Origin: an uncultured Eubacteriales bacterium
GTDB lineage: Bacteria > Bacillota > Clostridia > Christensenellales > Aristaeellaceae
DNA: 64,000 bases
Assembly (NCBI GenBank): GCA_902795275.1
Contig: CADBKQ010000015.1
Location: forward strand, 1 to 64,000
Direction: 5' to 3'
Position 1 is the first letter of the stretch, and each line of letters opens with the position of its first letter. This document shows, one piece after another, positions 22,715 to 51,482 of the stretch. Below the pieces are notes generated by a model. The model did no database searches. It was not told the origin of the DNA and worked only from the letters and a program-made list of their open reading frames with translations. A program made the translations under genes and the position numbers.

Positions 22715-23518
22715 TCACACCTCCGGTACTGTCGTAGCCGCGGGATGCTGTTTTCCCTGCGGGTCTATGGTTGTCTGTCCGGGCAGCAGCACCTGGGACA
22801 CCGGCCCCACGTTGAGCCCTTGCTCCCGGTATTTTTTCAGCACGGCGGGCAGCGCGTCCACGATATACTGGGAATCGTTGTGGAACAACACGATGTCGCC
22901 GCTTTTTACGTTTTTCGTGGCGCGGTCGATGAGCGGCTGCACGCCCTTGTTTTTCCAGTCCAGGGAGTCCACGCTCCACTGGATCACCTCATAGCCGTTT
23001 TCCCGCGCAGTCAGCACCACGTCGTTGTTATAATCGCCGTAGGGCGGGCGGAACAGCGTGGGGCGCTGCCCAATGAGCTTTTCCACATTCGCGCTCATGG
23101 TTTCCAGTTCCTGGGCGATCTTTTCCCGGCTGAGGGTGCTCATCTTGGGATGGGTGGTGGAATGGTTGCCGATCTCATGGCCCCGGGCAGCGATTTCCTG
23201 TACCAGTTCCGGGAAGCGCTGCGTCCAGATGTCCACCAAAAAGAACGTTGCCTTGACCCCATTTTCATCCAGAATATCCAGGATTTTTTTCGTCTTGTCC
23301 CCGCCCCAGGCCGCGTCAAAGCTGATGGCGATCCTGCCGTCGTCCCGATCCACCGAATACACCGGCAGCTCCCGTTTCCGGGCAACCACCTCCGCCGTGC
23401 GCGCGCCGGACACATAGGCCGCGCTCACCGCGCAGAGCAGGACAATCGCCAGCAGCGTGCCGGCGGCCAATCGCTTTCCTTTTTCCGCCACCGCCGCGTG
23501 TTCTGTGCGTTTCATCAT
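22715..23518 (-). CDS. pdaB: membrane-anchored polysaccharide deacetylase, PdaB-like
   Basis: The 267-residue protein has an N-terminal membrane anchor (residues 17-38) and a NodB homology domain: ISFDAAWG (motif 1), HEIGNHSTTHP (motif 2 metal ligands), RPPYGDYN (motif 3) and GDIVLFHND (motif 5). The second Asp of TFDD is an Ala, as in the PdaB group, so activity on peptidoglycan is uncertain. PdaB is needed for spore cortex stability in Bacillus. The start has AAAGGAGGCAGGA upstream; a second ATG follows directly. Confidence 0.85.
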   Translation of the reverse strand: MMKRTEHAAVAEKGKRLAAGTLLAIVLLCAVSAAYVSGARTAEVVARKRELPVYSVDRDDGRIAISFDAAWGGDKTKKILDILDENGVKATFFLVDIWTQRFPELVQEIAARGHEIGNHSTTHPKMSTLSREKIAQELETMSANVEKLIGQRPTLFRPPYGDYNNDVVLTARENGYEVIQWSVDSLDWKNKGVQPLIDRATKNVKSGDIVLFHNDSQYIVDALPAVLKKYREQGLNVGPVSQVLLPGQTTIDPQGKQHPAATTVPEV

Positions 23519-25515: not shown

Positions 25516-26427
25516 GTGGCGGTTGATCTGAAAAAATTGGACACTGAACGGCGCAATCCGCTTACCGCGAGCATTGACACCCTATCCACACAGGACATGG
25601 TGAAGCTGATCAACGCCGAAGACCGCAAGTGCGCCGAGGCAGTGGAACGGGTGCTGCCTCAGGTGGCGGAAAGCATTGACTGCATATATGAGAAAGTCCA
25701 CGCGGGCGGACGGCTGTTCTACGTCGGGGCCGGCACCAGCGGCCGCCTGGGCGTGCTGGACGCGGCGGAATGCCCGCCCACCTACGGGGTGGATCCCGGC
25801 CTGGTGGTGGGCTTAATCGCCGGCGGGCCGCCCGCCTTCCTCAAGGCCGTGGAAGGGGCGGAGGACAGCGCGGAGCTGGGCAGGAACGACCTGATCGCAA
25901 ACCAATTCAGCCAGAAGGACGCGCTGGTGGGCATCGCCGCCAGCGGGCGCACGCCCTATGTGATCGGGGCCATGGACTACGCCCGGTCGCTGGGCGCGCC
26001 GGTCATCGCCCTCACCTGCTGCCACGACAGCGAAATGTCCCGGCACGCGGATATTACCATCGATCCCGTTCCCGGCCCGGAGGTGATCACGGGCTCCTCC
26101 CGCATGAAAAGCGGCACCTGCCAGAAGCTGGTGCTGAACATGCTGTCCACCTGCGTGATGATCAAAATGGGCAAAGTATACGGCAACCTGATGGTGGACG
26201 TGCAGGCCACCAACCAGAAGCTGGTGCGCCGGGCGATTTCCATCGTCTGCGCCGCCACCGGCGAAAGCGAAGAAAAGGCCACCGCCGCCCTCGACCAGTG
26301 CGGCTTTTCCTGCAAAACCGCCATCGTGATGCTGTTGCTGAACCTGGACGCGGAAGCCGCTAAAGCGGCGCTGGACAAAGCGGACGGACGCATCGCCCAG
26401 GCGCTTCGGAACGAAAAAGGAGCGTAA
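25516..26427 (+). CDS. murQ: N-acetylmuramic acid 6-phosphate etherase MurQ
   Basis: The 303-residue SIS-domain protein has YVGAGTSGRLGVLDAAECPPTYG, VEGAEDS and GSSRMKSGT, the core MurQ signatures, with active-site glutamates in AAECPP and GAED. It cleaves the lactyl ether of MurNAc-6-phosphate to GlcNAc-6-phosphate in the cytoplasm. Translation starts at a GTG (25516), 10 bases after AAAGGAG; the ATG at 25444 lies before the transcript start. First gene of six that read in one direction with small gaps. Confidence 0.95.
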   Translation: MAVDLKKLDTERRNPLTASIDTLSTQDMVKLINAEDRKCAEAVERVLPQVAESIDCIYEKVHAGGRLFYVGAGTSGRLGVLDAAECPPTYGVDPGLVVGLIAGGPPAFLKAVEGAEDSAELGRNDLIANQFSQKDALVGIAASGRTPYVIGAMDYARSLGAPVIALTCCHDSEMSRHADITIDPVPGPEVITGSSRMKSGTCQKLVLNMLSTCVMIKMGKVYGNLMVDVQATNQKLVRRAISIVCAATGESEEKATAALDQCGFSCKTAIVMLLLNLDAEAAKAALDKADGRIAQALRNEKGA

Positions 26428-26430
26428 GCA

Positions 26431-27345
26431 ATGTACTATTGCGGCTGGGACGGCGGCGGCAGCACCACCAAGGCGCTGGCGCTGGACGCCCTGGGAAACA
26501 AAATTGGGGACGCCGTGTTCGGCCCGCTGAACCCCAACGGGGCCAGCCTGGAAACTGTAGAGAAGACGGTGCAAAACGCCGTGCAGTGGATGGCGGGGCT
26601 GCCCGGCGGGATCGCCGGGTGTCGGGGGCTGGTGGCAGGCATGGCGGGCGTCAGCAACCGTCAGGCCGCGCAAACGGTGGAGGAAGCCGTGCGTTCCAGC
26701 GGATACAGCGGGCCGTTCCGCCTGCTGGGAGATCAGGAAATCGCCCTGGCCGGGGCGATTCAGGGCCATGGCGCGATTCTGATCGCCGGAACAGGCGCGG
26801 TCTGCTTCGGACGCGACGCCGAAGGAAACACCTTTCGTACCGGCGGCTACGGCTACCTGATCGACGACGGCGGCAGCGGCTACGCCCTGGGCCGGGATAT
26901 GCTGGCCGCCGTCGTGCGGGCTTTCGACGGGCGCGGGCCGGCCACCTGCCTGACGGCGTTGGTGTATCAGGCGCTGGATGTCCAGGATGTTTCCGGCCTG
27001 ATCACATGGCTGTATTCCGCAAATACCGGAAAGAAAGAAATCGCCGCCCTGGCCCCGCTGCTGCTGCGGGCGCTGGAGCAGAACGACGAAGCGGCGCGGA
27101 CGATTGCGGACAAAGCCGCGGATGACTTAGTGGAGCTGGCCGTCGCATCCTGGCGGAAAACCGGCATGAGCGACGGCGAACTGGCATTGTTCGGCAGCAT
27201 CTTCCAGTATTATCCCTGTATCCGCCAGCGCCTGACCGAGCGGCTGCATGAGACGCTTCTCCGCGTCAGCGTGATCGAGCCGCGGCATCCCGCCGCCCAG
27301 GGCGCGGCGATCCTGGCCATGGAAACGTTCCAAGGCTGTGAGTGA
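26431..27345 (+). CDS. BadF/BcrA-type kinase, MurNAc/GlcNAc kinase-like
   Basis: The 304-residue ASKHA kinase starts with CGWDGGGSTTKALALD (phosphate loop 1), has AGTGAVCFG (phosphate 2) and GGYGYLIDDGGSGYALG (adenosine region), as in MurK and N-acetylglucosamine kinases of Clostridia. It should phosphorylate MurNAc and/or GlcNAc recovered from cell-wall turnover, giving the MurQ substrate. It lies 3 bases after murQ, so the two steps are coupled. It ends cleanly before the epimerase gene. Confidence 0.85.
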   Translation: MYYCGWDGGGSTTKALALDALGNKIGDAVFGPLNPNGASLETVEKTVQNAVQWMAGLPGGIAGCRGLVAGMAGVSNRQAAQTVEEAVRSSGYSGPFRLLGDQEIALAGAIQGHGAILIAGTGAVCFGRDAEGNTFRTGGYGYLIDDGGSGYALGRDMLAAVVRAFDGRGPATCLTALVYQALDVQDVSGLITWLYSANTGKKEIAALAPLLLRALEQNDEAARTIADKAADDLVELAVASWRKTGMSDGELALFGSIFQYYPCIRQRLTERLHETLLRVSVIEPRHPAAQGAAILAMETFQGCE

Positions 27346-27399: not shown

Positions 27400-28500
27400 A
27401 TGAAAATCGTATCCATCGAATGGGGCCGGGTGTCCATCCCGCTCAGAACGCCCTTCAAGACCGCGCTGCGCACCGTCGCCAGCGTGGAGGACATCATTGT
27501 GAAACTGACCGCCGATACCGGCGACGTGGGCTTTGGCGAAGCGCCGCCCACCGGCGTCATTACCGGCGACACGGCGGAGGCCATCTGCGGGGCCATTGAA
27601 CACCACATCGCCCCCGCGATTCTGAATCAGGAGATCGACGACTTTGAGGGCGTCACCGGCAAGGTGCAGGCTGCTTTGGTACACAACACCAGCGCGAAAG
27701 CCGCCGTGGACATGGCTCTGTGGGATCTGTACGGCAAGAAGCTGAACGCGCCGGTCTTCCGGCTGCTGGGCGGCGGGAAAACCCACATCGTCACCGACAT
27801 CACCGTCAGCGTGAACCCGCCGGAGGTCATGGCCCGGGACGCGGAAACCGCCATCCAGCGGGGATTTGACTGCATCAAGGTGAAGGTGGGCGTGAACCCG
27901 GCTTTGGACGTTGCCCGCCTCGCCGCCATCCGCGCCGCCGTACCCAAGGAAACCGTGCTGCGCATCGACGCCAACCAGGCCTGGACGCCCAAGGAGGCCG
28001 TGCGCATCCTGAACGGCATGCAGGATAAGGGCCTGGACATCGAGCTGGTGGAGCAGCCCGTAAAGGCCCACGACCTGGAAGGGCTGAAATACGTCACCGA
28101 GCGCAGTTTTGTGCCGGTACTGGCGGACGAATCCGTGTTCAGCCCCATGGACGCCATGAAGATTCTGCAAATGGGCGCGGCCGACCTGGTGAACATCAAG
28201 CTGATGAAGTGCGGCGGCATCACGAACGCCCTCAAAATCACCACGCTCGCCGAGCTGTACGGGGCCCAGTGCATGATCGGCTGCATGCTGGAAGGGCCGG
28301 TGGCTGTCAACGCCGCCGCGCATCTGGCCTGCGCCAAGGGCGTGATCACCAAATTCGACCTGGACGGCCCCATGCTCTGCGCCGCCAATCCCGTCCACAG
28401 CGGCAGCCGCTTCGAGGGCAAGGATATTTTCATGAGCGAAGAACCCGGCCTGGGGGTTACGGGGGTGGACGGCGTTGTGCCGCTGGGACAAGTAAAATAA
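27400..28500 (+). CDS. ykfB: dipeptide epimerase (L-Ala-D/L-Glu epimerase type, enolase superfamily)
   Basis: The 366-residue protein is a muconate-lactonizing subgroup member: KVKVG with the two catalytic lysines (KxK), then RIDANQAW (Asp), VEQPV (Glu) and LADES (Asp) as metal ligands, and NIKLMKCGG with the second-face lysine. YkfB-type epimerases convert L-Ala-D-Glu from murein peptides to L-Ala-L-Glu for degradation. The operon with murQ and its kinase supports that substrate. The ATG at 27400 follows ACGGAGG at 6 bases; the frame extends upstream without ribosome site. Confidence 0.88.
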   Translation: MKIVSIEWGRVSIPLRTPFKTALRTVASVEDIIVKLTADTGDVGFGEAPPTGVITGDTAEAICGAIEHHIAPAILNQEIDDFEGVTGKVQAALVHNTSAKAAVDMALWDLYGKKLNAPVFRLLGGGKTHIVTDITVSVNPPEVMARDAETAIQRGFDCIKVKVGVNPALDVARLAAIRAAVPKETVLRIDANQAWTPKEAVRILNGMQDKGLDIELVEQPVKAHDLEGLKYVTERSFVPVLADESVFSPMDAMKILQMGAADLVNIKLMKCGGITNALKITTLAELYGAQCMIGCMLEGPVAVNAAAHLACAKGVITKFDLDGPMLCAANPVHSGSRFEGKDIFMSEEPGLGVTGVDGVVPLGQVK

Positions 28501-28525: not shown

Positions 28526-29884
28526 ATGCCTGACCGTTATCTTGAATCCCTGGTCTGCCCTTTGCCGAAGGACATTGCGGCCTTGAAGGGCGCGGGGGAA
28601 TTTGACTTAGCTTTGCAATTGATTGAACGCAGGCTGAAGGAGCCGCTGCCGGAGATGCTCAAAAACCGGCTGGAAACAGAGCGGTTTTTGCTGCCGAAGC
28701 TGGCGGGCAGCTATACCCTGTCCCATGAAGACCTGCTGGCGGAAATGCAGAAGCGGGTGCCGGATTTCACCGCCGGAGAACTGGACGAACTGCTGCTGAA
28801 CGGCAAGCTGGATTTCATCTATGTGAACGGCCAGCGGCGGTATTTCAACCGCTTGCCCGGCTCCCTGCTTAAAGCCATCCCGTCCTTGAAAAAGCGCGCC
28901 CTGCCCGACAGCGGCGCACAGACCGACCTGGACGGCATCATCCGCCGCATGAAGCAGCGGGACGTGGTGTTCCGCTACCGCCTACGGGCAGACATGAAGA
29001 TCGACGATGACGAGCCCGGCGCGGTGTACCGCATCCATATGCCCCTGGCTTCCCGCTCCATGCAGCAGGAACCGGCAGCGGATGTTACTTGCAGTGTACC
29101 TTTCCGGGCCGACGCTGAGGACGCGCTCCAGCGCACTGCCTATATCGAAACAACAGAAAAGGAAATCCGGCTGGAATATACCGTCGTGCAGCGGCCCAAA
29201 TACGTTGACCCGCTGGACGAATCCATTCACCGCATCATCTATCCCGACGCCCGGCCCGTGTGTCCCGAGGATTTCATCGAGCAGCCGCCGCACCTGTCCT
29301 TCACGCCGTATCTGAAAGCCCTGGCGAAGGAACTGCGCGGCGAGGAAACCGACCCGGTGAAAACCGCCTGGCGGTTCTACGACTATATCACCAGCCGGGT
29401 GATCTATTCCTTCATGCCCTCCTACCGCCTCATGGAAAGCGGCGCGGAATACACCGCCGTGAACCGGCGCGGGGACTGCGGCATGCTGGCGCTTTTGTTC
29501 ATCGCCCTGTGCCGCATCAGCGGCATTCCCGCCCGCTGGCAGAGCGGCCTGGAAGCCGGGCCATGCGAAGTGGGCCATCACGACTGGGCGGAATTCTATT
29601 CCGAGCGCCTGGGCTGGCTGCCCGTGGACTGCTCCTTCGGCGGCAGCGCGTACCGCGCCGGCAACGAGGAACGGCGGCGCTTCTACTTCGGCAACCTCGA
29701 CCCCTACCGCATGGTGGCGAACCGGGCCTACTACGCGCCTTTCTCCCCGGCCAAAAAATATCCCCGCTCCGATCCCTACGACAGCCAGGGCGGCGAGGCC
29801 GAGACAGCCACCCACGGCCTGCTCGATGACGAATTTGATTCGGAATACACCCTGCTCTGGCATGAAATCACGGACGCTGAATAA
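28526..29884 (+). CDS. cytoplasmic transglutaminase-like (papain fold) protein
   Basis: The 452-residue protein has a C-terminal transglutaminase-like core with Cys in RRGDCGMLALLF, His in GHHDWAEFY and Asp in LPVDCSFGG, an intact triad. The N-terminal 170 residues are helical and unknown. There is no signal peptide, so it works inside the cell. Papain-fold proteins of this type can hydrolyse peptides; in this operon a role in breaking murein peptides is likely but unproven. Ribosome site GAAGGGAG lies 8 bases upstream. Confidence 0.75.
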   Translation: MPDRYLESLVCPLPKDIAALKGAGEFDLALQLIERRLKEPLPEMLKNRLETERFLLPKLAGSYTLSHEDLLAEMQKRVPDFTAGELDELLLNGKLDFIYVNGQRRYFNRLPGSLLKAIPSLKKRALPDSGAQTDLDGIIRRMKQRDVVFRYRLRADMKIDDDEPGAVYRIHMPLASRSMQQEPAADVTCSVPFRADAEDALQRTAYIETTEKEIRLEYTVVQRPKYVDPLDESIHRIIYPDARPVCPEDFIEQPPHLSFTPYLKALAKELRGEETDPVKTAWRFYDYITSRVIYSFMPSYRLMESGAEYTAVNRRGDCGMLALLFIALCRISGIPARWQSGLEAGPCEVGHHDWAEFYSERLGWLPVDCSFGGSAYRAGNEERRRFYFGNLDPYRMVANRAYYAPFSPAKKYPRSDPYDSQGGEAETATHGLLDDEFDSEYTLLWHEITDAE

Positions 29885-29908: not shown

Positions 29909-31483
29909 ATGACACCTGCGATGGAAAATGCGGACATCATCATCCGCGGCGGAACGATCATTGACGGCACGGGGCGGCCCGGATACCGCGGCGACATTGC
30001 CGTGAAGGACGGAATCATTGCCGCACTGGGCGATTTACAGCGTCTACGCGGGCGGCGGGAATTCAGCGCGGAGGGCCTCGCCGTTGCGCCGGGCTTCATC
30101 GACGCCCACGCCCATTCGGACACCATGTTCGTGCGGGACGACAGCGGCGCGTCCAAGCTGTACCAGGGCATCACCACCGAAATATCGGGCAACTGCGGCG
30201 ACAGCCCTTTTCCCATGCGGAAGGGAGACAGTGACCCCTGGATGTTTCCCTCCTTCGAGGAATTCCTGGACGCCTTTTCCCGCCGGGGCTGCCGCATGGC
30301 GGTGAACCAGGCCATGCTGACGGGCCACGGCACCCTGCGGGACGCCGTGATCGGGGAAGCGAACCGCGCGGCCACTCCCGCCGAAATGGAAGAAATGAAG
30401 CGCCTGCTGCGCCGCGATATGGAAGCGGGAACCCTGGGGCTTTCGCTGGGTCTGGAATACGCGCCGGGCTGTTTCGCCAATCAGGCGGAATTAAATGAGC
30501 TGGGAAAAACGGTGCGGGAGATGGAAGGCATCGTCACCTGCCACATGCGCAGCGAAGGGCTGCAAATCGACAGCGCCATCCAGGAACTGGCGGAAATTGG
30601 CCGGGCTTCCGGCGCGCACGTCCACGCTTCGCATTTAAAACTGGACAACTACACCGTGCATGGCCGCGCCCCGCAGGTCTGGGAAGCCATCGAGCAAGCG
30701 AATCGGGAAGGGATTCGCTTCACGGCGGACACCTATCCCTACACCGCTTCCTCCACCACCCTCAGCATCCGCTGCCCCCGGTGGAGCATGGACGGCGGGC
30801 GGGAAGGGCTGCTGCGCTGCCTGCGCGGACCCCGGCGGCAGGAGATCGTCGAGGGCATCCGCCGCCATTACTTTAACGCCGAACGGGCGGAAACCTGCCT
30901 GTTCAGCGACGACCGGGGCACATGGCCGGAGATCGTGGGCAAGACCCTGCGGCAGGTGGCGGAAGACATGCTGCACACCACGGACTACGCCGAAGCCGCC
31001 GCGGAGGTGCTGCTGCGGACGGAGGCGAAAGCCTGGTGCGTGTTCTTCGTGATGAGCGAGCAGGACATGCTGTATTTCCTGTCCCGGGACATCTGCATCG
31101 GCTCGGATGGGTACGCGCTGCCCGGCGAAGCGGCCCAAATGCATTACAACCCGCATCCGCGTTCCTACGGCGCGGTGGCGGAGTTTTTCCGGCTGGCCCG
31201 GGAAAAGCGAATTTGCGGCGTCGAAGAAGCGGTGCGCCGGGTGACGGGCAAGCCCGCCGACATCTTCGGCCTTACCGACCGGGGACGGCTGGAAGCCGGC
31301 TTGGCGGCGGACATCACCGTGTTCGACCCCGCCGCGTTCGCGCCGCGGGCCACATATTTGCAGCCCGTGCAATTGGCCCGGGGCGTGCGGCTCGTGATCG
31401 TGAACGGCACCGTCGCTCTGCGGGACGGCAGGCAGACGGAGGAACGCGCCGGGAAGCTTTTACGGAAGGAACTGAAACGATGA
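29909..31483 (+). CDS. N-acyl-D-amino-acid deacylase (D-aminoacylase, amidohydrolase family)
   Basis: The 524-residue protein has the amidohydrolase opening IIIRGGTIIDGTG, the metal-binding HAHSD in GFIDAHAHSD, a catalytic lid with SGNCGDSPFP and the metal-coordinating HASHLK. D-aminoacylases of this subgroup remove acyl groups from D-amino acids or hydrolyse D-Glu/D-Ala-linked dipeptides. In a murein recycling operon it probably acts on peptides with a D-amino acid. The ATG at 29909 follows AGGAAGAGG closely; an ATG at 29921 is an alternative. Confidence 0.88.
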   Translation: MTPAMENADIIIRGGTIIDGTGRPGYRGDIAVKDGIIAALGDLQRLRGRREFSAEGLAVAPGFIDAHAHSDTMFVRDDSGASKLYQGITTEISGNCGDSPFPMRKGDSDPWMFPSFEEFLDAFSRRGCRMAVNQAMLTGHGTLRDAVIGEANRAATPAEMEEMKRLLRRDMEAGTLGLSLGLEYAPGCFANQAELNELGKTVREMEGIVTCHMRSEGLQIDSAIQELAEIGRASGAHVHASHLKLDNYTVHGRAPQVWEAIEQANREGIRFTADTYPYTASSTTLSIRCPRWSMDGGREGLLRCLRGPRRQEIVEGIRRHYFNAERAETCLFSDDRGTWPEIVGKTLRQVAEDMLHTTDYAEAAAEVLLRTEAKAWCVFFVMSEQDMLYFLSRDICIGSDGYALPGEAAQMHYNPHPRSYGAVAEFFRLAREKRICGVEEAVRRVTGKPADIFGLTDRGRLEAGLAADITVFDPAAFAPRATYLQPVQLARGVRLVIVNGTVALRDGRQTEERAGKLLRKELKR

Positions 31484-32895
31484 GTTTAGCGTATCGCCCG
31501 CTGACCGCGCAGGATGACGCGGCGATTGCGGCGCTTATTCGCGGCAATCTGAAAGCGAACCGGCTGGACATCCCCGGCACCGCCTATTACGACGAAGCCC
31601 TTGACTGCCTGAGCCAATACTATTCCGCCGCGCCCCGCCGGGCGTATGACGTGCTTTTGGAGGACGGCGCGGTGATCGGCGGCGTCGGCCTGGCGGCGTT
31701 CGACGCCTTCCCGGACTGCTGCGAGATGCAAAAGCTCTATCTGGCCGACAGAGCAAAAGGCAGGGGCTTCGGCTATGCGCTGGTCATGCGCATCGAAAAC
31801 AGGGCCAGGGAAATGGGCTTCAAGCGGATCTATCTTGAAACCCACACCAACCTGCAAGCAGCCATCCGGCTGTATGAACGCTGCGGCTATCAGGAAATCG
31901 CCCGGCCTGACTGCGTGGTGCACGGCACCATGAACAAGTTTTACCTGAAAGAGCTGACGCCGTGCTCCGGGCCGGTGGCCATTCCGCTGGAACGGGAATC
32001 CGCCCTCATTCAGGCCGCGCCCGCCTATGACGCGGCAGCAGCGAAGGCTTTCATTCCCGTCATGCAAAAAATCCGGGAGCTGGTTGACAGCCTCCCGGAG
32101 GACGATACCCTGACCTGCTTTGGAAAAGCCGTTCCGTCGCCGGCGGCATTCAAACATCTGAACGAGGAAATCCAGCGCATCGTTGATGATCATCACAAGG
32201 TCTCCCTGATCATGGCCGACCTGAAAACTCAATCCGGCGTGGCGTTCCACTCCACCGAACGCATGTGCACCCAGAGCACCGTCAAAGCGATCTACGCCGG
32301 CGCGGCGCTGGACGCGCGGCCCGAAGCGTTCCTGGAAAACGGCCAGTATTTCCGCGACGCCATCGTGCTGTCCGACAACGACGCCTATGAAAACCTGCGC
32401 AAAATCTACGGCACGGCGCCGCTGCTGAAATGGTGCCGGGAAGCGGGCGTGGACGACGATTTCACAGCCATGCCCTACCCGCGCAACAAAACCGCCCGGG
32501 ACATGTTCAAGCTGTGGACGCGGCTGTACTGCTTCCTGAACGGCGGGTCGGACATTCATCACGCGGGCAGGTACTTCGCGGACTCCGCCGAATCCGCCAC
32601 CAAAGAATGGCTGGCTGGGCGGCTTCCCGTGCAGACCAAAGCGGGGTGGGAATGCGGCATCGACGAAGACACGGAGGTGTTTTCCCTGGACATGATTCCC
32701 GCCCGCTTCGTGGATGGCGACCCGATGAACGACGAAGTCGCCACCAACGACACCGGCATCGTGTACGCGGAGAGAGGGCCTTATCTCTTCGTGATGTACT
32801 CAGATTATCCCCATCCCTTCGGCGTCCCCAACCGGCTGTACGGCCTGGCGGAAGCGCTTTACGAAACGCAAAAGAGCTTTTCTGCCGTCGAATAA
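31480..32895 (+). CDS. GNAT acetyltransferase fused to a penicillin-recognising serine hydrolase
   Basis: Residues 1-150 are a GNAT domain (CCEMQKLYLADRAKGRGFGYALVMRIE, LETHTNLQAAIRLYERCGY). From about residue 185 the chain is a class A beta-lactamase/PBP fold: STVK (SxxK near residue 264), SDN (near 296) and KAG in place of KTG (near 386). No signal peptide is present, so the hydrolase acts in the cytoplasm, unlike standard beta-lactamases. Combined with the operon, it may hydrolyse and acetylate murein-peptide fragments. The start overlaps the deacylase stop (ATGA). Confidence 0.8.
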   Translation: MSLAYRPLTAQDDAAIAALIRGNLKANRLDIPGTAYYDEALDCLSQYYSAAPRRAYDVLLEDGAVIGGVGLAAFDAFPDCCEMQKLYLADRAKGRGFGYALVMRIENRAREMGFKRIYLETHTNLQAAIRLYERCGYQEIARPDCVVHGTMNKFYLKELTPCSGPVAIPLERESALIQAAPAYDAAAAKAFIPVMQKIRELVDSLPEDDTLTCFGKAVPSPAAFKHLNEEIQRIVDDHHKVSLIMADLKTQSGVAFHSTERMCTQSTVKAIYAGAALDARPEAFLENGQYFRDAIVLSDNDAYENLRKIYGTAPLLKWCREAGVDDDFTAMPYPRNKTARDMFKLWTRLYCFLNGGSDIHHAGRYFADSAESATKEWLAGRLPVQTKAGWECGIDEDTEVFSLDMIPARFVDGDPMNDEVATNDTGIVYAERGPYLFVMYSDYPHPFGVPNRLYGLAEALYETQKSFSAVE

Positions 32896-33835: not shown

Positions 33836-34246
33836 TTATGACAGGTTTTTTTTGATTGTCAGCATGTTTTTTCCGTTCTGCCACCGATAAGTTACGCTGT
33901 CCATGCTCTTTTTGACCATGTAGATGCCCAGGCCGCCGATCTGCCTCTCGTCCACGGAAAGCGTCACATCCGGGTCCGGCTTCGCCAGGGGATCGAACGG
34001 AGCGCCGGAATCAATGAAGGTAATGGAAACGGCAGGCGGGTTTTCCTCCGTTTCAATTTGCAGGGTGGCGGGGCCGGACTTCGGCGCGTAGGCGTAGTGG
34101 GCAATGTTGACAAAGATTTCTTCCACGGCAACGTCGATCTGCATCTGAACCTTCATGCTGCAGCCAAGCGCTTCCAGGCGTTCATCCACAAAAGCCAGTA
34201 CCTGGTTCAGGTTGTCCACTTTCGCTTCCAGGGTCAGTTCATGCAT
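33836..34246 (-). CDS. RsbW/SpoIIAB-like serine kinase (anti-sigma type HATPase)
   Basis: The 136-residue protein is a complete HATPase_c anti-sigma fold: the N box AVEEIFVNIAHYAY, the G1 box FIDSGAPFDPL and the G2 box GGLGIYMVKK are all intact, so ATP binding is likely. RsbW-like kinases phosphorylate STAS-domain antagonists or bind sigma factors. It overlaps the upstream phosphatase gene by 8 bases. No STAS or sigma gene is next to it, so its partners lie elsewhere, or the degenerate copy on the MATE protein is involved. Confidence 0.88.
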   Translation of the reverse strand: MHELTLEAKVDNLNQVLAFVDERLEALGCSMKVQMQIDVAVEEIFVNIAHYAYAPKSGPATLQIETEENPPAVSITFIDSGAPFDPLAKPDPDVTLSVDERQIGGLGIYMVKKSMDSVTYRWQNGKNMLTIKKNLS

Positions 34247-35855
34247 CGCGTTTTTCCCCCCTTCCGTTATAATGGAAGCTCAGCATGGTGATGTCGTCAA
34301 ACTGGGGAGCGTCGCCCACAAAGGCGTCGATGTCCCGCCGCACTTCCTTCAAAAGCTCGTCGGGCGCCGCGCTGGGATCGCGGTTCAGGGCGGCCAGCAT
34401 GCGGTCGGTGCCGAACAGCTCGTTGTGCGCGTTCGTGGCTTCCGGCACGCCGTCGGTGTACACGAACAGGCTGTCGCCGGGGTACAGCTCGAAGGGATGC
34501 TCCCGGAAGCGGATGCCGTTCAGGGTGGCGACAGCGGGGGAGTGGCGGTACAGCACCACCTCGTATTGACCGCCCGCCCGCCGGATCACGGGATGCTCAT
34601 GGCCCGCGTTGGCGGCCAGGCCCCGGCCGGTGGAGATTTCGATGATTGCCAGCCAGACGGTAACGAACAGCTCCGCCTCGTTGCCCTCGCACAATTGCTC
34701 GTTGACGTTCTTCAGAATCTCCGCCGGGCTGTCGCCCATCTGCGCCCGGTTCTTGATGAGCGTCTTGGCGATGACCATGAACAGCGCGGCGGGCACGCCT
34801 TTGCCGCTCACGTCTGCCATCACCAGGCAGATATGATTCTCGTCCACCAGGAAGAAATCGTAGAAATCGCCGCCCACTTCCTTGGCCGGGTCCATGGTGG
34901 CGTAGAGGTCAAACTCATGCCGATCCGGGAAGGGCGGGAAAATGCGGGGCAGCATGTCCGCCTGAATCTGGGTGGCCACGTTCAGTTCCGCGCCGATGCG
35001 TTCCTTCTCCGCCGTGATGGTCTGGATATTATCAATATATTTGATAATATCGCCTTCCATCAGGCTGATGGACTCCGCCAGCTCCTGAATCTCGTCCCGG
35101 GTGCGGATGTCCGCCAGGGACGTGGTGGTGGCCGTTTCGTTCTGCGCGAACTCCGTCACGTTGCTGCGGATGTGCATCAGCGGTTTGATGAAATTCCTGC
35201 GCATGTAGAACCAGTACGCGATGCAGAAAACCGCCAGGGTGCCCAGGGAAATCAGGATCATCCGCAGAATGTAGCCCCGCAGGGTGGTCATGATCAGCTC
35301 CATCCACACGTCCACCAGCAGCACCGCCACGATTTTGCCCTGGCTGTCGATCACGGGCAGCATGCTGGAGGTGAGGAAGCCGTATTTCTTGGAGTGGCGA
35401 ACCATATAGTTGTCGGGCTTTTTGCCCTCCGTATAGGCCGCCCACGCTTCGTCGAAATAAGCGGAGAGGGGATCGACGCTCCCGATAGCCATGCCGGAGG
35501 AGTCGTAAATATACCGCATGGTGTGATCCTCGGAAAAGGTCACGATGTAAATATACGCCGCGCCGGACGCCTCCTCCACGCCCTTTAAGTATTCCGCCAT
35601 CGCCGGGTAATCCTCGTCCTCGGTCCAGGTCTGGGCGTAATGGCCGATCTTATCGTGGTCGATGTGCTTCAAAATGATGTTGGCGATCACATAGCCGTTG
35701 TCGTTATAGAGCTTGCGGATCGTATCGCTGTACTGGACATAGCCGCTGAACGTGGAGACGGCGCAGATCAGCACCGTCAGCAGCACGACGCTCAGCAGCA
35801 TCTTTTTGCTGACGCCGAACCGGATGCGCTTGGGTTTCACCTGGTTATCCGCCAT
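34239..35855 (-). CDS. membrane-bound SpoIIE/RsbU-type PP2C phosphatase with sensor and HAMP
   Basis: The 538-residue protein has a first membrane helix (about residues 18-40), an extracytoplasmic Cache-like sensor (QYSDTIRKLYND to DVWMELIMTT), a second helix near 205-228, a HAMP region (FIKPLMHIRSNVTEF), a coiled stretch and a C-terminal SpoIIE phosphatase: DPAKEVGGDFYDFF, MADVSGKGVPAALFM and QFDDITML carry the metal-binding Asp residues. It would dephosphorylate STAS proteins phosphorylated by the RsbW-like kinase encoded downstream. The ATG at 35855 has AAGGAGATG upstream. It overlaps the GNAT gene by 11 bases. Confidence 0.92.
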   Translation of the reverse strand: MADNQVKPKRIRFGVSKKMLLSVVLLTVLICAVSTFSGYVQYSDTIRKLYNDNGYVIANIILKHIDHDKIGHYAQTWTEDEDYPAMAEYLKGVEEASGAAYIYIVTFSEDHTMRYIYDSSGMAIGSVDPLSAYFDEAWAAYTEGKKPDNYMVRHSKKYGFLTSSMLPVIDSQGKIVAVLLVDVWMELIMTTLRGYILRMILISLGTLAVFCIAYWFYMRRNFIKPLMHIRSNVTEFAQNETATTTSLADIRTRDEIQELAESISLMEGDIIKYIDNIQTITAEKERIGAELNVATQIQADMLPRIFPPFPDRHEFDLYATMDPAKEVGGDFYDFFLVDENHICLVMADVSGKGVPAALFMVIAKTLIKNRAQMGDSPAEILKNVNEQLCEGNEAELFVTVWLAIIEISTGRGLAANAGHEHPVIRRAGGQYEVVLYRHSPAVATLNGIRFREHPFELYPGDSLFVYTDGVPEATNAHNELFGTDRMLAALNRDPSAAPDELLKEVRRDIDAFVGDAPQFDDITMLSFHYNGRGEKRDA

Positions 35856-36444
35856 GTTTCTCATCTCCTTCTTCACTGAATTCCCGGATATACAATACCG
35901 CGTCGCAGATGCAGGCATCCTGCCTGCAATACGGGCAGTATCCCTTCGTCCCCGCCCAGGGACTGTGAAGCGTCAGAACCGGGACAAAGCCCGTTTTCAT
36001 CAGGACGTGCCGAATCGGAATCTCCTGACCGAAAGGACGCAGGGCTGCGGCTACGATCATGCTCGCGCCCCTGCTTTTGAGCACCGGCTGCAAATTCGCC
36101 ATAAAGGAGGAAAACAGGCCCAGCTTCCGGTAGGCCGGGTCTGTGCTGGTGGTTTTGTAGACCCCGACGCGCTCATTGCCCGCGTACTTTTGCAGCGCTT
36201 CCGGCTTCTCCTGCACATGGAGAACGTGCAGCGCTTCGTCCAGCGTGGAAAGGAACGCATAGAAGTAAGACACGACTATGCCGTCCCGATCCGCGTCGAC
36301 TACCACATAGAGCAGGTCGTCTTCCCCGCGGATCATCCTTTCCAAATCCTCGATGGAATAGAAATCCCGGGAGATGTTCGCATCAATCAGGCGCTTGATC
36401 TGCGCAAGATCGCGGGGCTGTGCAAGCCTTGTTTCCAGCTTCAT
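35845..36444 (-). CDS. GNAT-like acetyltransferase with a cysteine-rich tail
   Basis: The 199-residue protein has GNAT features: KLETRLAQPRDLAQIKRLIDANI at the start and STDPAYRKLGLFSSFMANLQPVLKSRG near acetyl-CoA motif A, although the R/QxxGxG/A loop is weak. After residue 165 it carries CPYCRQDACIC, four cysteines that could bind a metal. It sits between the MATE-HATPase gene (no gap) and the phosphatase gene (11-base overlap), so it belongs to the signalling operon. The substrate is unknown. Confidence 0.7.
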   Translation of the reverse strand: MKLETRLAQPRDLAQIKRLIDANISRDFYSIEDLERMIRGEDDLLYVVVDADRDGIVVSYFYAFLSTLDEALHVLHVQEKPEALQKYAGNERVGVYKTTSTDPAYRKLGLFSSFMANLQPVLKSRGASMIVAAALRPFGQEIPIRHVLMKTGFVPVLTLHSPWAGTKGYCPYCRQDACICDAVLYIREFSEEGDEKHGG

Positions 36445-43699: not shown

Positions 43700-44695
43700 A
43701 TGAACATGCCGATTGGCAGGCTGCCGCACGGGGAAAGAAATCTGATTACCGACGTGCCGGGAGTGCGGGTGGGCCACGCCACAGTGGACGCGGGCGATTG
43801 CCATACCGGGGTGACGGTGGTGCTTCCGCCGCGGGAGAATCCTTTCACGGACAAGCTGACGGCGGCGTGCTGCGTGTTCAACGGATTTGGAAAGACCCTG
43901 GGCTTGGTGCAGGTGGAGGAGCTTGGCACGCTGGAAACGCCCATCGCGCTGACCAACACCCTGAACGTGGGCAAAGTACACGACGCGCTGGTGAGCTACA
44001 TGATCGACGTCTGCCGCCGGGACGGGATCAAATTGACTTCCGTGAACCCGGTGGTCTGCGAATGCAACGACAGCCGGATCAGCGAGATTGCCAGACGGCC
44101 GGTGGGGGAGAGGGAAGTGCTCGATGCCATTGCGTCCGCATCATCCGACTTCGCCCAGGGCGCGGTCGGCGCGGGCCGGGGCACCATCTGCTACGGCATG
44201 AAGGGCGGCATCGGCTCCTCCTCGCGGCTGATGGAATTGGACGGCAAAACCTATACCATCGGCGTGCTGGTGCAGAGCAATTACGGCGCGTCGGCGGACT
44301 TCCGCGCGGTCTGCCTGCCGGAAGGGCTGGCGGAATGCGACCAGGGCAGCATCATCCTGATTGCCGCCACCGACCTGCCCCTGTCCTCGCGGCAGCTCAG
44401 GCGCGTGCTGCGCAGGGCATCCGTGGGGATGGCGCGGCTGGGCTCCTATATCGGGCATGGCAGCGGAGAAATCGCCGTCGGCTTCACGACTGCGCCAAAA
44501 GAAAAACGCAGCGACAGTTTTCAAACGCAAACTGTGCTGCGGGAAGACCTGATGAACCTGCCCTTCCGGGCCATCGGCGAATGCGCCGAGGAAGCGATCC
44601 TGCAATCCCTCTGGCACGCCGCGCCGGACCAAGGGCTGGACGGTACGAGCATCCCATCGCTGAGGGAATTCCTGAAAGGAAGGAAGCCGGTTTAA
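43700..44695 (+). CDS. P1-family (DmpA/BapA-like) aminopeptidase
   Basis: The 331-residue protein is an autoprocessing Ntn-type hydrolase of the DmpA family: NLITDVPGVRVGHATV near the start, GAVGAGRGTICYGMKGGIGSSS, and the processing site in GHGSGEIAVGFTT, where cleavage before the Ser makes the N-terminal nucleophile. The family hydrolyses D-amino acid or beta-amino acid peptides. No signal peptide, so cytoplasmic. The ATG at 43700 has AAAGGAGGC at 10 bases; an earlier ATG at 43679 lies before it. It might act on D-amino acid peptides of cell-wall origin, but this is inference. Confidence 0.9.
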   Translation: MNMPIGRLPHGERNLITDVPGVRVGHATVDAGDCHTGVTVVLPPRENPFTDKLTAACCVFNGFGKTLGLVQVEELGTLETPIALTNTLNVGKVHDALVSYMIDVCRRDGIKLTSVNPVVCECNDSRISEIARRPVGEREVLDAIASASSDFAQGAVGAGRGTICYGMKGGIGSSSRLMELDGKTYTIGVLVQSNYGASADFRAVCLPEGLAECDQGSIILIAATDLPLSSRQLRRVLRRASVGMARLGSYIGHGSGEIAVGFTTAPKEKRSDSFQTQTVLREDLMNLPFRAIGECAEEAILQSLWHAAPDQGLDGTSIPSLREFLKGRKPV

Positions 44696-44713: not shown

Positions 44714-45841
44714 TTACTTTTTCCAGTAGCTCATCACTTCGCCCGGCGACATTTCCCGATGGATGCGGTTGATTTCCTTCAATTCGGCCGGGCGGCGGGG
44801 AGGATTGCAGTAGGGGCAGGGCGTGAGGGAAGCGAATTCCGCTTCATCCAATTGCCCGTAATTGAAAGCCGTCATCTGCGGCCAGTATTTCTCCTTGACG
44901 CCCCGGCAGTCGTGGGTGGTGTGGTAATTGGCGCCGCCGTTGGGGTTATAATACAGCACGGTGTGCTCCGAGGGGATTTCGATCTGGCGGCCCTGGTAGT
45001 CCTCCCAGATCACCACTTTGGTGCCGTTTTTGATGTTGTCCCAGATCCACTTCATATTGATGCCTTCTGGGTTTTTCAGCCGCTGCACCCGAATGCAGCC
45101 GTGGCTGGAACGGGTACCCAGCTTGGGCTCGGTGTTTTTATAGTTCTTGGAGCCGTCGCCGTTCTTGGTGTGAGGCACTTCATGCAGCAGATCGCCGCTG
45201 TTGAAGCGCAGGCCCATGGCGCACACCAGGTTGTCGCTCTTGAAATCACCCACCCGGGACACGATGATGAATTCGCCGGAGCGGGTTTCGTTATAGGGCT
45301 GCTTGTCGTTGTACAGGCCGGTGGACACGGCCAGGCTGCTCATCAGGTGGCCGTCGTGGAAGATGTAAAGGGTCTGGGTCAGCTTGTCGATCACGATGCC
45401 GTATTCCTGGTTGACCTTCTTGGTTTTCAGCTTATTGGTAGGCACATAACCGGTCACGAAGGCGTTCCAGTTTTTCACCTTGCTGTCGTGGAAAGAGCTG
45501 GAATAGGTTTCCACCTTTGTCCAGCCGTCTTTGTCTTTTTCCAGCACGTGCACCGCCTGGCTGGAGCCGGTAATCACGCCTAAGGGGTCGCTGTTTTTAT
45601 CCGGCCTGGTATACAGGATCACCTGATCCTTCTGGCCCGCGTCCACAACGGTGATGGGCGCGGTCAGCATGGCCCACACCGCTTCCTCATCGCGAATGTC
45701 CATGGGCGTGCACCAATAGCAGTTTTCGTGCCAGGGCCGGTATTGGCTGCGATAAGCGGGCGTAATCACGTCCTCCGCCCGGACGACGGGAACGGGAATC
45801 AACAAAAGCGTCAAAAAAAGAGAAAGCAGTGTTTTCCGCAT
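44714..45841 (-). CDS. secreted L,D-transpeptidase (YkuD) with SH3-like domain
   Basis: The 375-residue protein has a signal peptide (cleavage near VVRA), an SH3-like segment (about 65-140, ILYTRPDKNSDPLGVI), a YkuD catalytic domain (about 145-280) with the catalytic Cys in SSHGCIRV, and a C-terminal CPYC-containing tail with HTTHDC. It would make 3-3 peptidoglycan crosslinks or attach proteins outside the cell. It has its own promoter (45932-45960) and AAAGGAGAC before the ATG. Confidence 0.9.
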   Translation of the reverse strand: MRKTLLSLFLTLLLIPVPVVRAEDVITPAYRSQYRPWHENCYWCTPMDIRDEEAVWAMLTAPITVVDAGQKDQVILYTRPDKNSDPLGVITGSSQAVHVLEKDKDGWTKVETYSSSFHDSKVKNWNAFVTGYVPTNKLKTKKVNQEYGIVIDKLTQTLYIFHDGHLMSSLAVSTGLYNDKQPYNETRSGEFIIVSRVGDFKSDNLVCAMGLRFNSGDLLHEVPHTKNGDGSKNYKNTEPKLGTRSSHGCIRVQRLKNPEGINMKWIWDNIKNGTKVVIWEDYQGRQIEIPSEHTVLYYNPNGGANYHTTHDCRGVKEKYWPQMTAFNYGQLDEAEFASLTPCPYCNPPRRPAELKEINRIHREMSPGEVMSYWKK

Positions 45842-50453: not shown

Positions 50454-51482
50454 ATGATCAGGAATGTCGCCATCGTAAGCCTTTCCAGCGGGATCGTGGG
50501 AGAGCCGTTCGTTCAGTTTGAGGTGGAAATCGGCCTGCGCAGGCTGAAGGATTACGGCCTCAACGTGAAATTTATGCCGCACGCGCGCATGGGCCTGGAA
50601 TATGTGAAGGCGCACCCGGAGAAGCGGGCGGAGGATCTTTTGCGGGCGTTCCGCGATCCCGAGGTCGATATGATCCTGTGCGCCAGCGGCGGCGACGATA
50701 CCTACCGCCTGCTGCCTTACCTGTTTGACCATCATGAGCTGGCGGACGCGGTCACGGACAAGGTGTTCCTCGGCTTTTCCGATACCACCATCAATCACCT
50801 GATGCTGCACAAGGTCGGGCTGCGCACCTTCTACGGGCAGGCTTTCCTTGCGGATATTTGCGAGCTGGGCCCGGAAATGCACCCCTATACCCGGAAGTAT
50901 TTTGAAGAACTGATCACCACCGGCGGCATCCGGGAAGTCACGCCCAGCGGTGTGTGGTATGAGGAGAGGAAACAATTCACGCCCGACCAGGCGGGGAAGC
51001 CTGTGCCCAGCCACCCCAACCGGGGCTTTGAACTGCTCCAGGGCGCGCCGGTGTTTTCCGGCAAAATTCTGGGCGGCTGCATTGATTCGCTCTATGACTT
51101 TTTCGACGGAGAGCGGTATGCGGACATGCCGGTTCTGTGCGAAAAGTATCATCTGTTCCCCGACGCGGCGGACTGGAAGGGGCGCATCCTGCTGCTGGAA
51201 TCCAGCGAGGAAATGCCCGCGCCCGAAAAATACCGCAAGGCGCTGGAATACCTGAAAGGAACGGGCGTGTTTGGCGCGGTGTCCGGCGTGCTGGCCGGGA
51301 AGCCCATGAACGAAACCTACGCGGAAGAATACAAGCGGCTGCTGGTCGAAGTGATCGGCAGGCCCGATCTTCCGATTGTTTTCAACCTGAACATCGGCCA
51401 CGCCATGCCCCGCTGCATCATGCCCTTCGGCGTGGAAGCCCGGGTGGACGCCGAACAGCAGGTGATCCGGTTCGGCGAATGA
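50454..51482 (+). CDS. peptidase S66 (LD-carboxypeptidase/MccF-like)
   Basis: The 342-residue protein has the S66 layout: ASGGDDTYRLLPYL (oxyanion region) and LGFSDTTINHL with the nucleophile Ser, followed by GKILGGCIDSL and IGHAMP with the catalytic Glu/His parts. S66 enzymes cleave the L,D-bond in murein tetrapeptides or self-toxic acyl-nucleotides of the microcin C type. No signal peptide, so cytoplasmic. With the recycling operon elsewhere in the window, a murein role is likely. The ATG at 50454 follows GGAAGGATGG; the open frame back to 50364 has no better site. Confidence 0.85.
   Translation: MIRNVAIVSLSSGIVGEPFVQFEVEIGLRRLKDYGLNVKFMPHARMGLEYVKAHPEKRAEDLLRAFRDPEVDMILCASGGDDTYRLLPYLFDHHELADAVTDKVFLGFSDTTINHLMLHKVGLRTFYGQAFLADICELGPEMHPYTRKYFEELITTGGIREVTPSGVWYEERKQFTPDQAGKPVPSHPNRGFELLQGAPVFSGKILGGCIDSLYDFFDGERYADMPVLCEKYHLFPDAADWKGRILLLESSEEMPAPEKYRKALEYLKGTGVFGAVSGVLAGKPMNETYAEEYKRLLVEVIGRPDLPIVFNLNIGHAMPRCIMPFGVEARVDAEQQVIRFGE

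Follow-up and report, generated by a model that had tools for sequence, protein, structure and literature searches.

We identified a gene in which a GNAT N-acetyltransferase is joined in frame to a class-A-like serine hydrolase, at the end of a muropeptide-salvage operon in the window, the 64,000-nucleotide stretch of clostridial DNA analysed here. The best-supported reading is that the hydrolase works in the cytoplasm, in the salvage of D-amino acids or muropeptides, and to this we assign a probability of about one half. The fusion is real and under purifying selection, and it is a recent, lineage-specific join of two soluble enzymes that normally exist apart.

The fusion gene (31480..32895, + strand) encodes a protein of 471 aa, and its start overlaps the stop of an upstream amidohydrolase gene in the sequence ATGA. 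The GNAT domain spans residues 1-158 (31480..31953, +) and contains an acetyl-CoA loop, KGRGFG, at residues 93-98, as well as a match to Pfam Acetyltransf_1 at residues 36-137 (64.8 bits, E = 1.1e-17). The serine hydrolase domain, residues 159-471 (31954..32892, +), is homologous over its full length to free-standing proteins of ~307-333 aa and matches Pfam Beta-lactamase2 (PF13354) at residues 291-440 (31.7 bits, cut-off 22; E = 1.2e-7). An earlier note on this DNA had described an SxxK serine hydrolase fused to a GNAT domain with which the protein begins, and the Pfam domains and a second genome confirm this arrangement. That genome (G973, L032), independent of the window's, carries the same fusion as an unbroken 472-aa frame with 94.8% DNA identity, which rules out a frameshift or assembly artefact as the origin of the gene. 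AlphaFold models built from shallow alignments had a mean pLDDT of 35.7 for the whole protein (4 sequences) and 36.6 for the hydrolase half (3 sequences). Two other Beta-lactamase2 matches occur in the window's own genome (L002, L003), where the frame read gives no recognisable protein. Searches found no relevant literature on GNAT/beta-lactamase fusions or on cytoplasmic penicillin-fold recycling enzymes.

Conservation of the SxxK, SxN and K[TSA]G motifs among homologues indicates that the hydrolase half is probably a penicillin-recognising serine hydrolase. Alignment and a motif scan place STVK at residues 266-269 (32275..32286, +), with Ser266 as the predicted nucleophile together with Lys269; SDN at residues 298-300 (32371..32379, +), its Ser and Asn invariant in homologues; and KAG at residues 387-389 (32638..32646, +), in the position of KTG and within an invariant KAGWE (residues 387-391). 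S-T-[VI]-K, S-x-N and KAGWE hold without exception across the nine aligned hydrolase sequences, in which further blocks are also invariant. When the composition was shuffled and permissive spacing allowed, the three motifs appeared in order in 20 of 20,000 trials (0.1%). The proposal that STVK, SDN and KAG mark a penicillin-recognising fold is thus borne out at the sequence level, and loss of SxxK in homologues, named beforehand as grounds for rejecting it, is seen in none of the nine; the serine itself, earlier placed in the region of residue 264, is residue 266.

The hydrolase shares with class A beta-lactamases the order of SxxK, SxN and K[AT]G and significant profile matches. The family profile matched solved class A enzymes weakly (best E = 1.6e-4), and a profile-profile comparison with class A beta-lactamases (TEM, B. 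licheniformis) aligned across SxxK-SDN with a probability of 93.7 and E = 1.8e-7. The plasmid search confirmed the first of the two reference sequences as a TEM enzyme, and we take the second to be that of B. licheniformis. In contrast to class A enzymes, the hydrolase half has no export signal, has KAG rather than KTG, and spans 32 residues from SxxK to SDN versus about 60, with a 28-residue gap in the alignment. Its omega loop, GVD..YPRxKTARDM, is shorter and has no conserved Glu; read against TEM, Glu166 and the ExxLN loop are absent. The hydrolase half does not qualify as a member of class A, as omega-loop Glu, motif spacing and export signal all differ. It is by motif a likely penicillin-fold acyl-enzyme, and with ~28 residues missing and no Glu166 loop it represents a narrow, compact family.

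We detected no signal sequence in the fusion protein or in seven free hydrolase homologues, using a simple hydropathy test, rather than a signal-peptide program, with exported proteins from the same genomes and from the window as controls. Maximum 12-residue hydropathy within the first 60 residues was 0.99 for the fusion and 0.3-1.4 for the free homologues, versus 2.9-3.1 for the exported controls. These low N-terminal values agree with the earlier suggestion that the protein is not exported, and we found no evidence of export.

The fusion gene closes a run of genes that includes murQ. MurQ, N-acetylmuramic acid 6-phosphate etherase (25516..26427, +; start from a codon-usage gene call), scores 420 bits against TIGR00274 (cut-off 302), and is followed by a BadF/NagK-type amino-sugar kinase identified by profile matches (26431..27345, +) and by an enolase-superfamily, L-Ala-D/L-Glu epimerase-like protein (27400..28500, +) with 255 bits to NF041118. 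Together, murQ, the amino-sugar kinase and the Ala-Glu epimerase-like gene characterize a muropeptide-salvage operon, the epimerase falling below its NCBIfam cut-off of 500. Next come a 452-aa transglutaminase-core protein without a signal peptide (28526..29884, +; Pfam match, no NCBIfam match), a D-aminoacylase-like amidohydrolase resembling N-acyl-D-amino-acid deacylases (DAA; 29909..31483, +), and the fusion gene. Because the pair formed by DAA and the fusion stands behind murQ, kinase, epimerase-like and transglutaminase-like genes, muropeptide salvage is the best context for it. The transglutaminase-core gene is conserved beside the epimerase-like gene in two relatives (G164, G115) and its product is possibly a cytoplasmic salvage peptidase. 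A polysaccharide deacetylase gene (22715-23518, -) lies upstream of the operon on the opposite strand.

DAA is a conserved neighbour of the hydrolase. The free hydrolase gene lies directly 3' of DAA at three loci (L035, L036, L037), as in both fusion genomes, and DAA is present in 6/6 hydrolase-bearing genomes versus 27/199 overall (Fisher p = 3.7e-6). Counted by genus, which is the only correction made for relatedness, the association has p = 0.004. The hydrolase gene also occurs alone, apart from DAA and murQ (G155, G056, G125, L033), and its link to the murQ operon is therefore a peculiarity of the fusion lineage.

In four relatives (L083-L086), a cluster of murQ, kinase, epimerase and, in some, transglutaminase genes is accompanied by NamZ-like and ABC-transporter genes and by S12 beta-lactamase-fold hydrolases. 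Two of these (G164, G115) include the transglutaminase and a signal-less S12 hydrolase gene; similar clusters in G125 and G056 are without the transglutaminase. The S12 proteins (L083:7626-8726, L084:7622-8722, L085:7385-8482, L086:7578-8690) have no evident signal, that of L083 having been tested for family and signal and the other three judged by their similar start and place. Signal-less hydrolases of this kind therefore recur in the salvage cluster. The S12 gene is missing from the window's murQ cluster, and a 47% relative is found on another contig of the genome. The murQ cluster and the DAA-hydrolase pair lie on different contigs in relatives; in the window genome the two are joined, with GNAT sequence occupying the place at which the free hydrolase would begin. 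The gene for NamZ, an exo-beta-N-acetylmuramidase, at L083:238-1383 also has no evident signal sequence. Within the murQ clusters of G164 and G115 is another GNAT of 175 aa (L083:7104-7631, L084:7100-7627), which belongs to a different subfamily (20% identity).

AmiE (YbbE) of Bacillus subtilis, which we take to be a member of the serine beta-lactamase family, resembles the fusion in being a hydrolase of a murQ salvage cluster; unlike the fusion, it acts outside the cell and has no GNAT. Its closer parallels may be the S12 proteins of the relatives' clusters rather than the hydrolase domain of the fusion. The B. subtilis murQ cluster carries this enzyme as a MurNAc-L-Ala amidase (PMC5061867).

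The fusion was found in 2 of the 29 genomes of the genus, those of the window and G973. A search of 200 genomes of the family recovered the hydrolase half alone (residues ~158-471) in 6 genomes and close matches to the GNAT half alone (E below 1e-50) in 10, and the close GNAT relatives co-occur with the free hydrolase in none of the six hydrolase genomes (0/6). One of these (G056) has a remote GNAT match (40%, 1.4e-13). The window genome contains no free copy of the GNAT at 1e-10. Among 396 genomes of the order and 398 of the phylum, searched at 1e-8, the one match to the hydrolase was the window genome itself; in these roughly 790 sampled genomes the hydrolase family did not appear beyond this GTDB family. 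In a plasmid search the best 20 matches were all GNAT, and among the matches listed none was a fusion spanning 80% of the query. Between the two fusion genes, synonymous divergence is 0.18-0.33 and dN/dS is 0.14 for the GNAT, 0.17 for the junction and 0.09 for the hydrolase core; both halves are therefore maintained.

The GNAT half belongs to its superfamily by the Pfam match (1.1e-17) and by the loop KGRGFG (R/K-G-x-G-x-G), whose glycines are invariant; eleven aligned GNAT sequences have the loop and long invariant blocks in common. It is related to YjgM/OatA-type N-acetyltransferases, with 43% identity to E. coli YjgM over 145 aa, a similar domain length and the same acetyl-CoA loop. YjgM/OatA is free-standing, whereas the GNAT half here is fused to a hydrolase. 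The Salmonella enzyme OatA, previously named YjgM, converts O-acetylserine by N-acetylation into N,O-diacetylserine (PMC6277577). Genes for free relatives of the GNAT half lie in scattered, unrelated surroundings with no cell-wall genes nearby, and they show no association with DAA (p = 0.40). Given the lack of cell-wall context and of co-occurrence with the hydrolase, and the kinship with YjgM/OatA, small amino acids are a likelier substrate than murein peptides, although the fusion keeps the latter possible. GlmA of Clostridium acetobutylicum, a glucosamine/glucosaminide N-acetyltransferase and presumably also a GNAT member, is comparable as an acetyltransferase connected with cell-wall salvage in Gram-positive bacteria; unlike the fusion it is free-standing.

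With respect to catalysis, the bond cut, the substrate of the GNAT half and cooperation between the halves, we infer the following. Ser266, activated by Lys269, would attack an amide or peptide bond beside a D-residue, either in fragments of cell wall that the cell has imported or in a D-amino-acid peptide derived from them. An acyl-enzyme would form and then be hydrolysed, in a compact sub-family that lacks the class A deacylation glutamate. The D-amino acid released in this way, N-acylated or N-blocked, may be the substrate of DAA in the next step, while the sugar would go to MurQ and the kinase and the Ala-Glu dipeptide to the epimerase-like enzyme. By analogy with YjgM/OatA, the GNAT half may N-acetylate either a small amino acid in free form or the amine of a dipeptide. 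We consider it improbable, though worth stating, that the whole forms a two-step salvage enzyme, in which this cytoplasmic compact penicillin-fold family processes imported muropeptides and the fused GNAT acetylates the released product; our searches found no description of such a hydrolase-acetyltransferase in cell-wall salvage. Studies of penicillin-fold enzymes normally concern those that act outside the membrane. If a conserved family of this fold does serve D-amino-acid and cell-wall salvage in the cytoplasm, it would extend the chemistry known for the fold, and the fusion would hint directly at reactions that are linked when these Clostridia recycle cell walls or feed on them.

The bifunctional muropeptide enzyme proposed in the earlier note gains from the location in a salvage operon; the part that fares poorly is a murein-peptide substrate shared by both halves. 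In its full form, the GNAT would acetylate a muropeptide amine, on the peptide or on a de-N-acetylated sugar, and the hydrolase would trim the same molecule. Selection for the in-frame fusion in two species fits this proposal, as does the nearby polysaccharide deacetylase, and a clostridial glucosamine/glucosaminide N-acetyltransferase has been described (Reith and Mayer 2011, cited in PMC4974736). The GNAT between kinase and S12 hydrolase in the G164 and G115 clusters would be a further parallel, but its different subfamily weakens it. Since, moreover, the free GNAT relatives keep away from cell-wall genes and from the hydrolase, and the nearest characterised relative acts on O-acetylserine, we regard this enzyme as unlikely.

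Alternatively, the fusion may be an accident in which both halves keep their old, unrelated jobs and joint expression is incidental. Its restriction to two close species of the 29 in the genus, the separate distributions of the halves, and the presence of GNAT sequence at the point where the hydrolase gene used to start, with the DAA overlap kept, all suit this explanation. Purifying selection on both halves and the junction speaks against it only weakly, being compatible with an accident as well, and we hold this explanation to be possible but doubtful. GNATs and beta-lactamase folds are both common in resistance, and acetylation and hydrolysis might together detoxify a peptide-like or beta-lactam-like antimicrobial acting in the cytoplasm. 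However, the hydrolase lacks Glu166 and the ExxLN loop, on which class A turnover depends, matches to NCBIfam models of resistance type fall far short of their cut-offs, and the operon is catabolic, all of which makes detoxification very improbable. The reading of the hydrolase as a cytoplasmic salvage enzyme remains the one we prefer.

Elsewhere in the window, a gene of LD-carboxypeptidase family S66 (50454-51482, +) follows an AraC-type regulator. As this enzyme is already encoded, the hydrolase is not a simple replacement for LD-carboxypeptidase (LdcA), and we rejected that candidate role. An L,D-transpeptidase with an SH3 domain (44714-45802, -) adjoins a peptidase S58 family gene (43700-44695, +). 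A SpoIIE-type phosphatase gene and then a small gene recognised by eye as anti-sigma-factor-kinase-like occupy 33836-35918 (-).
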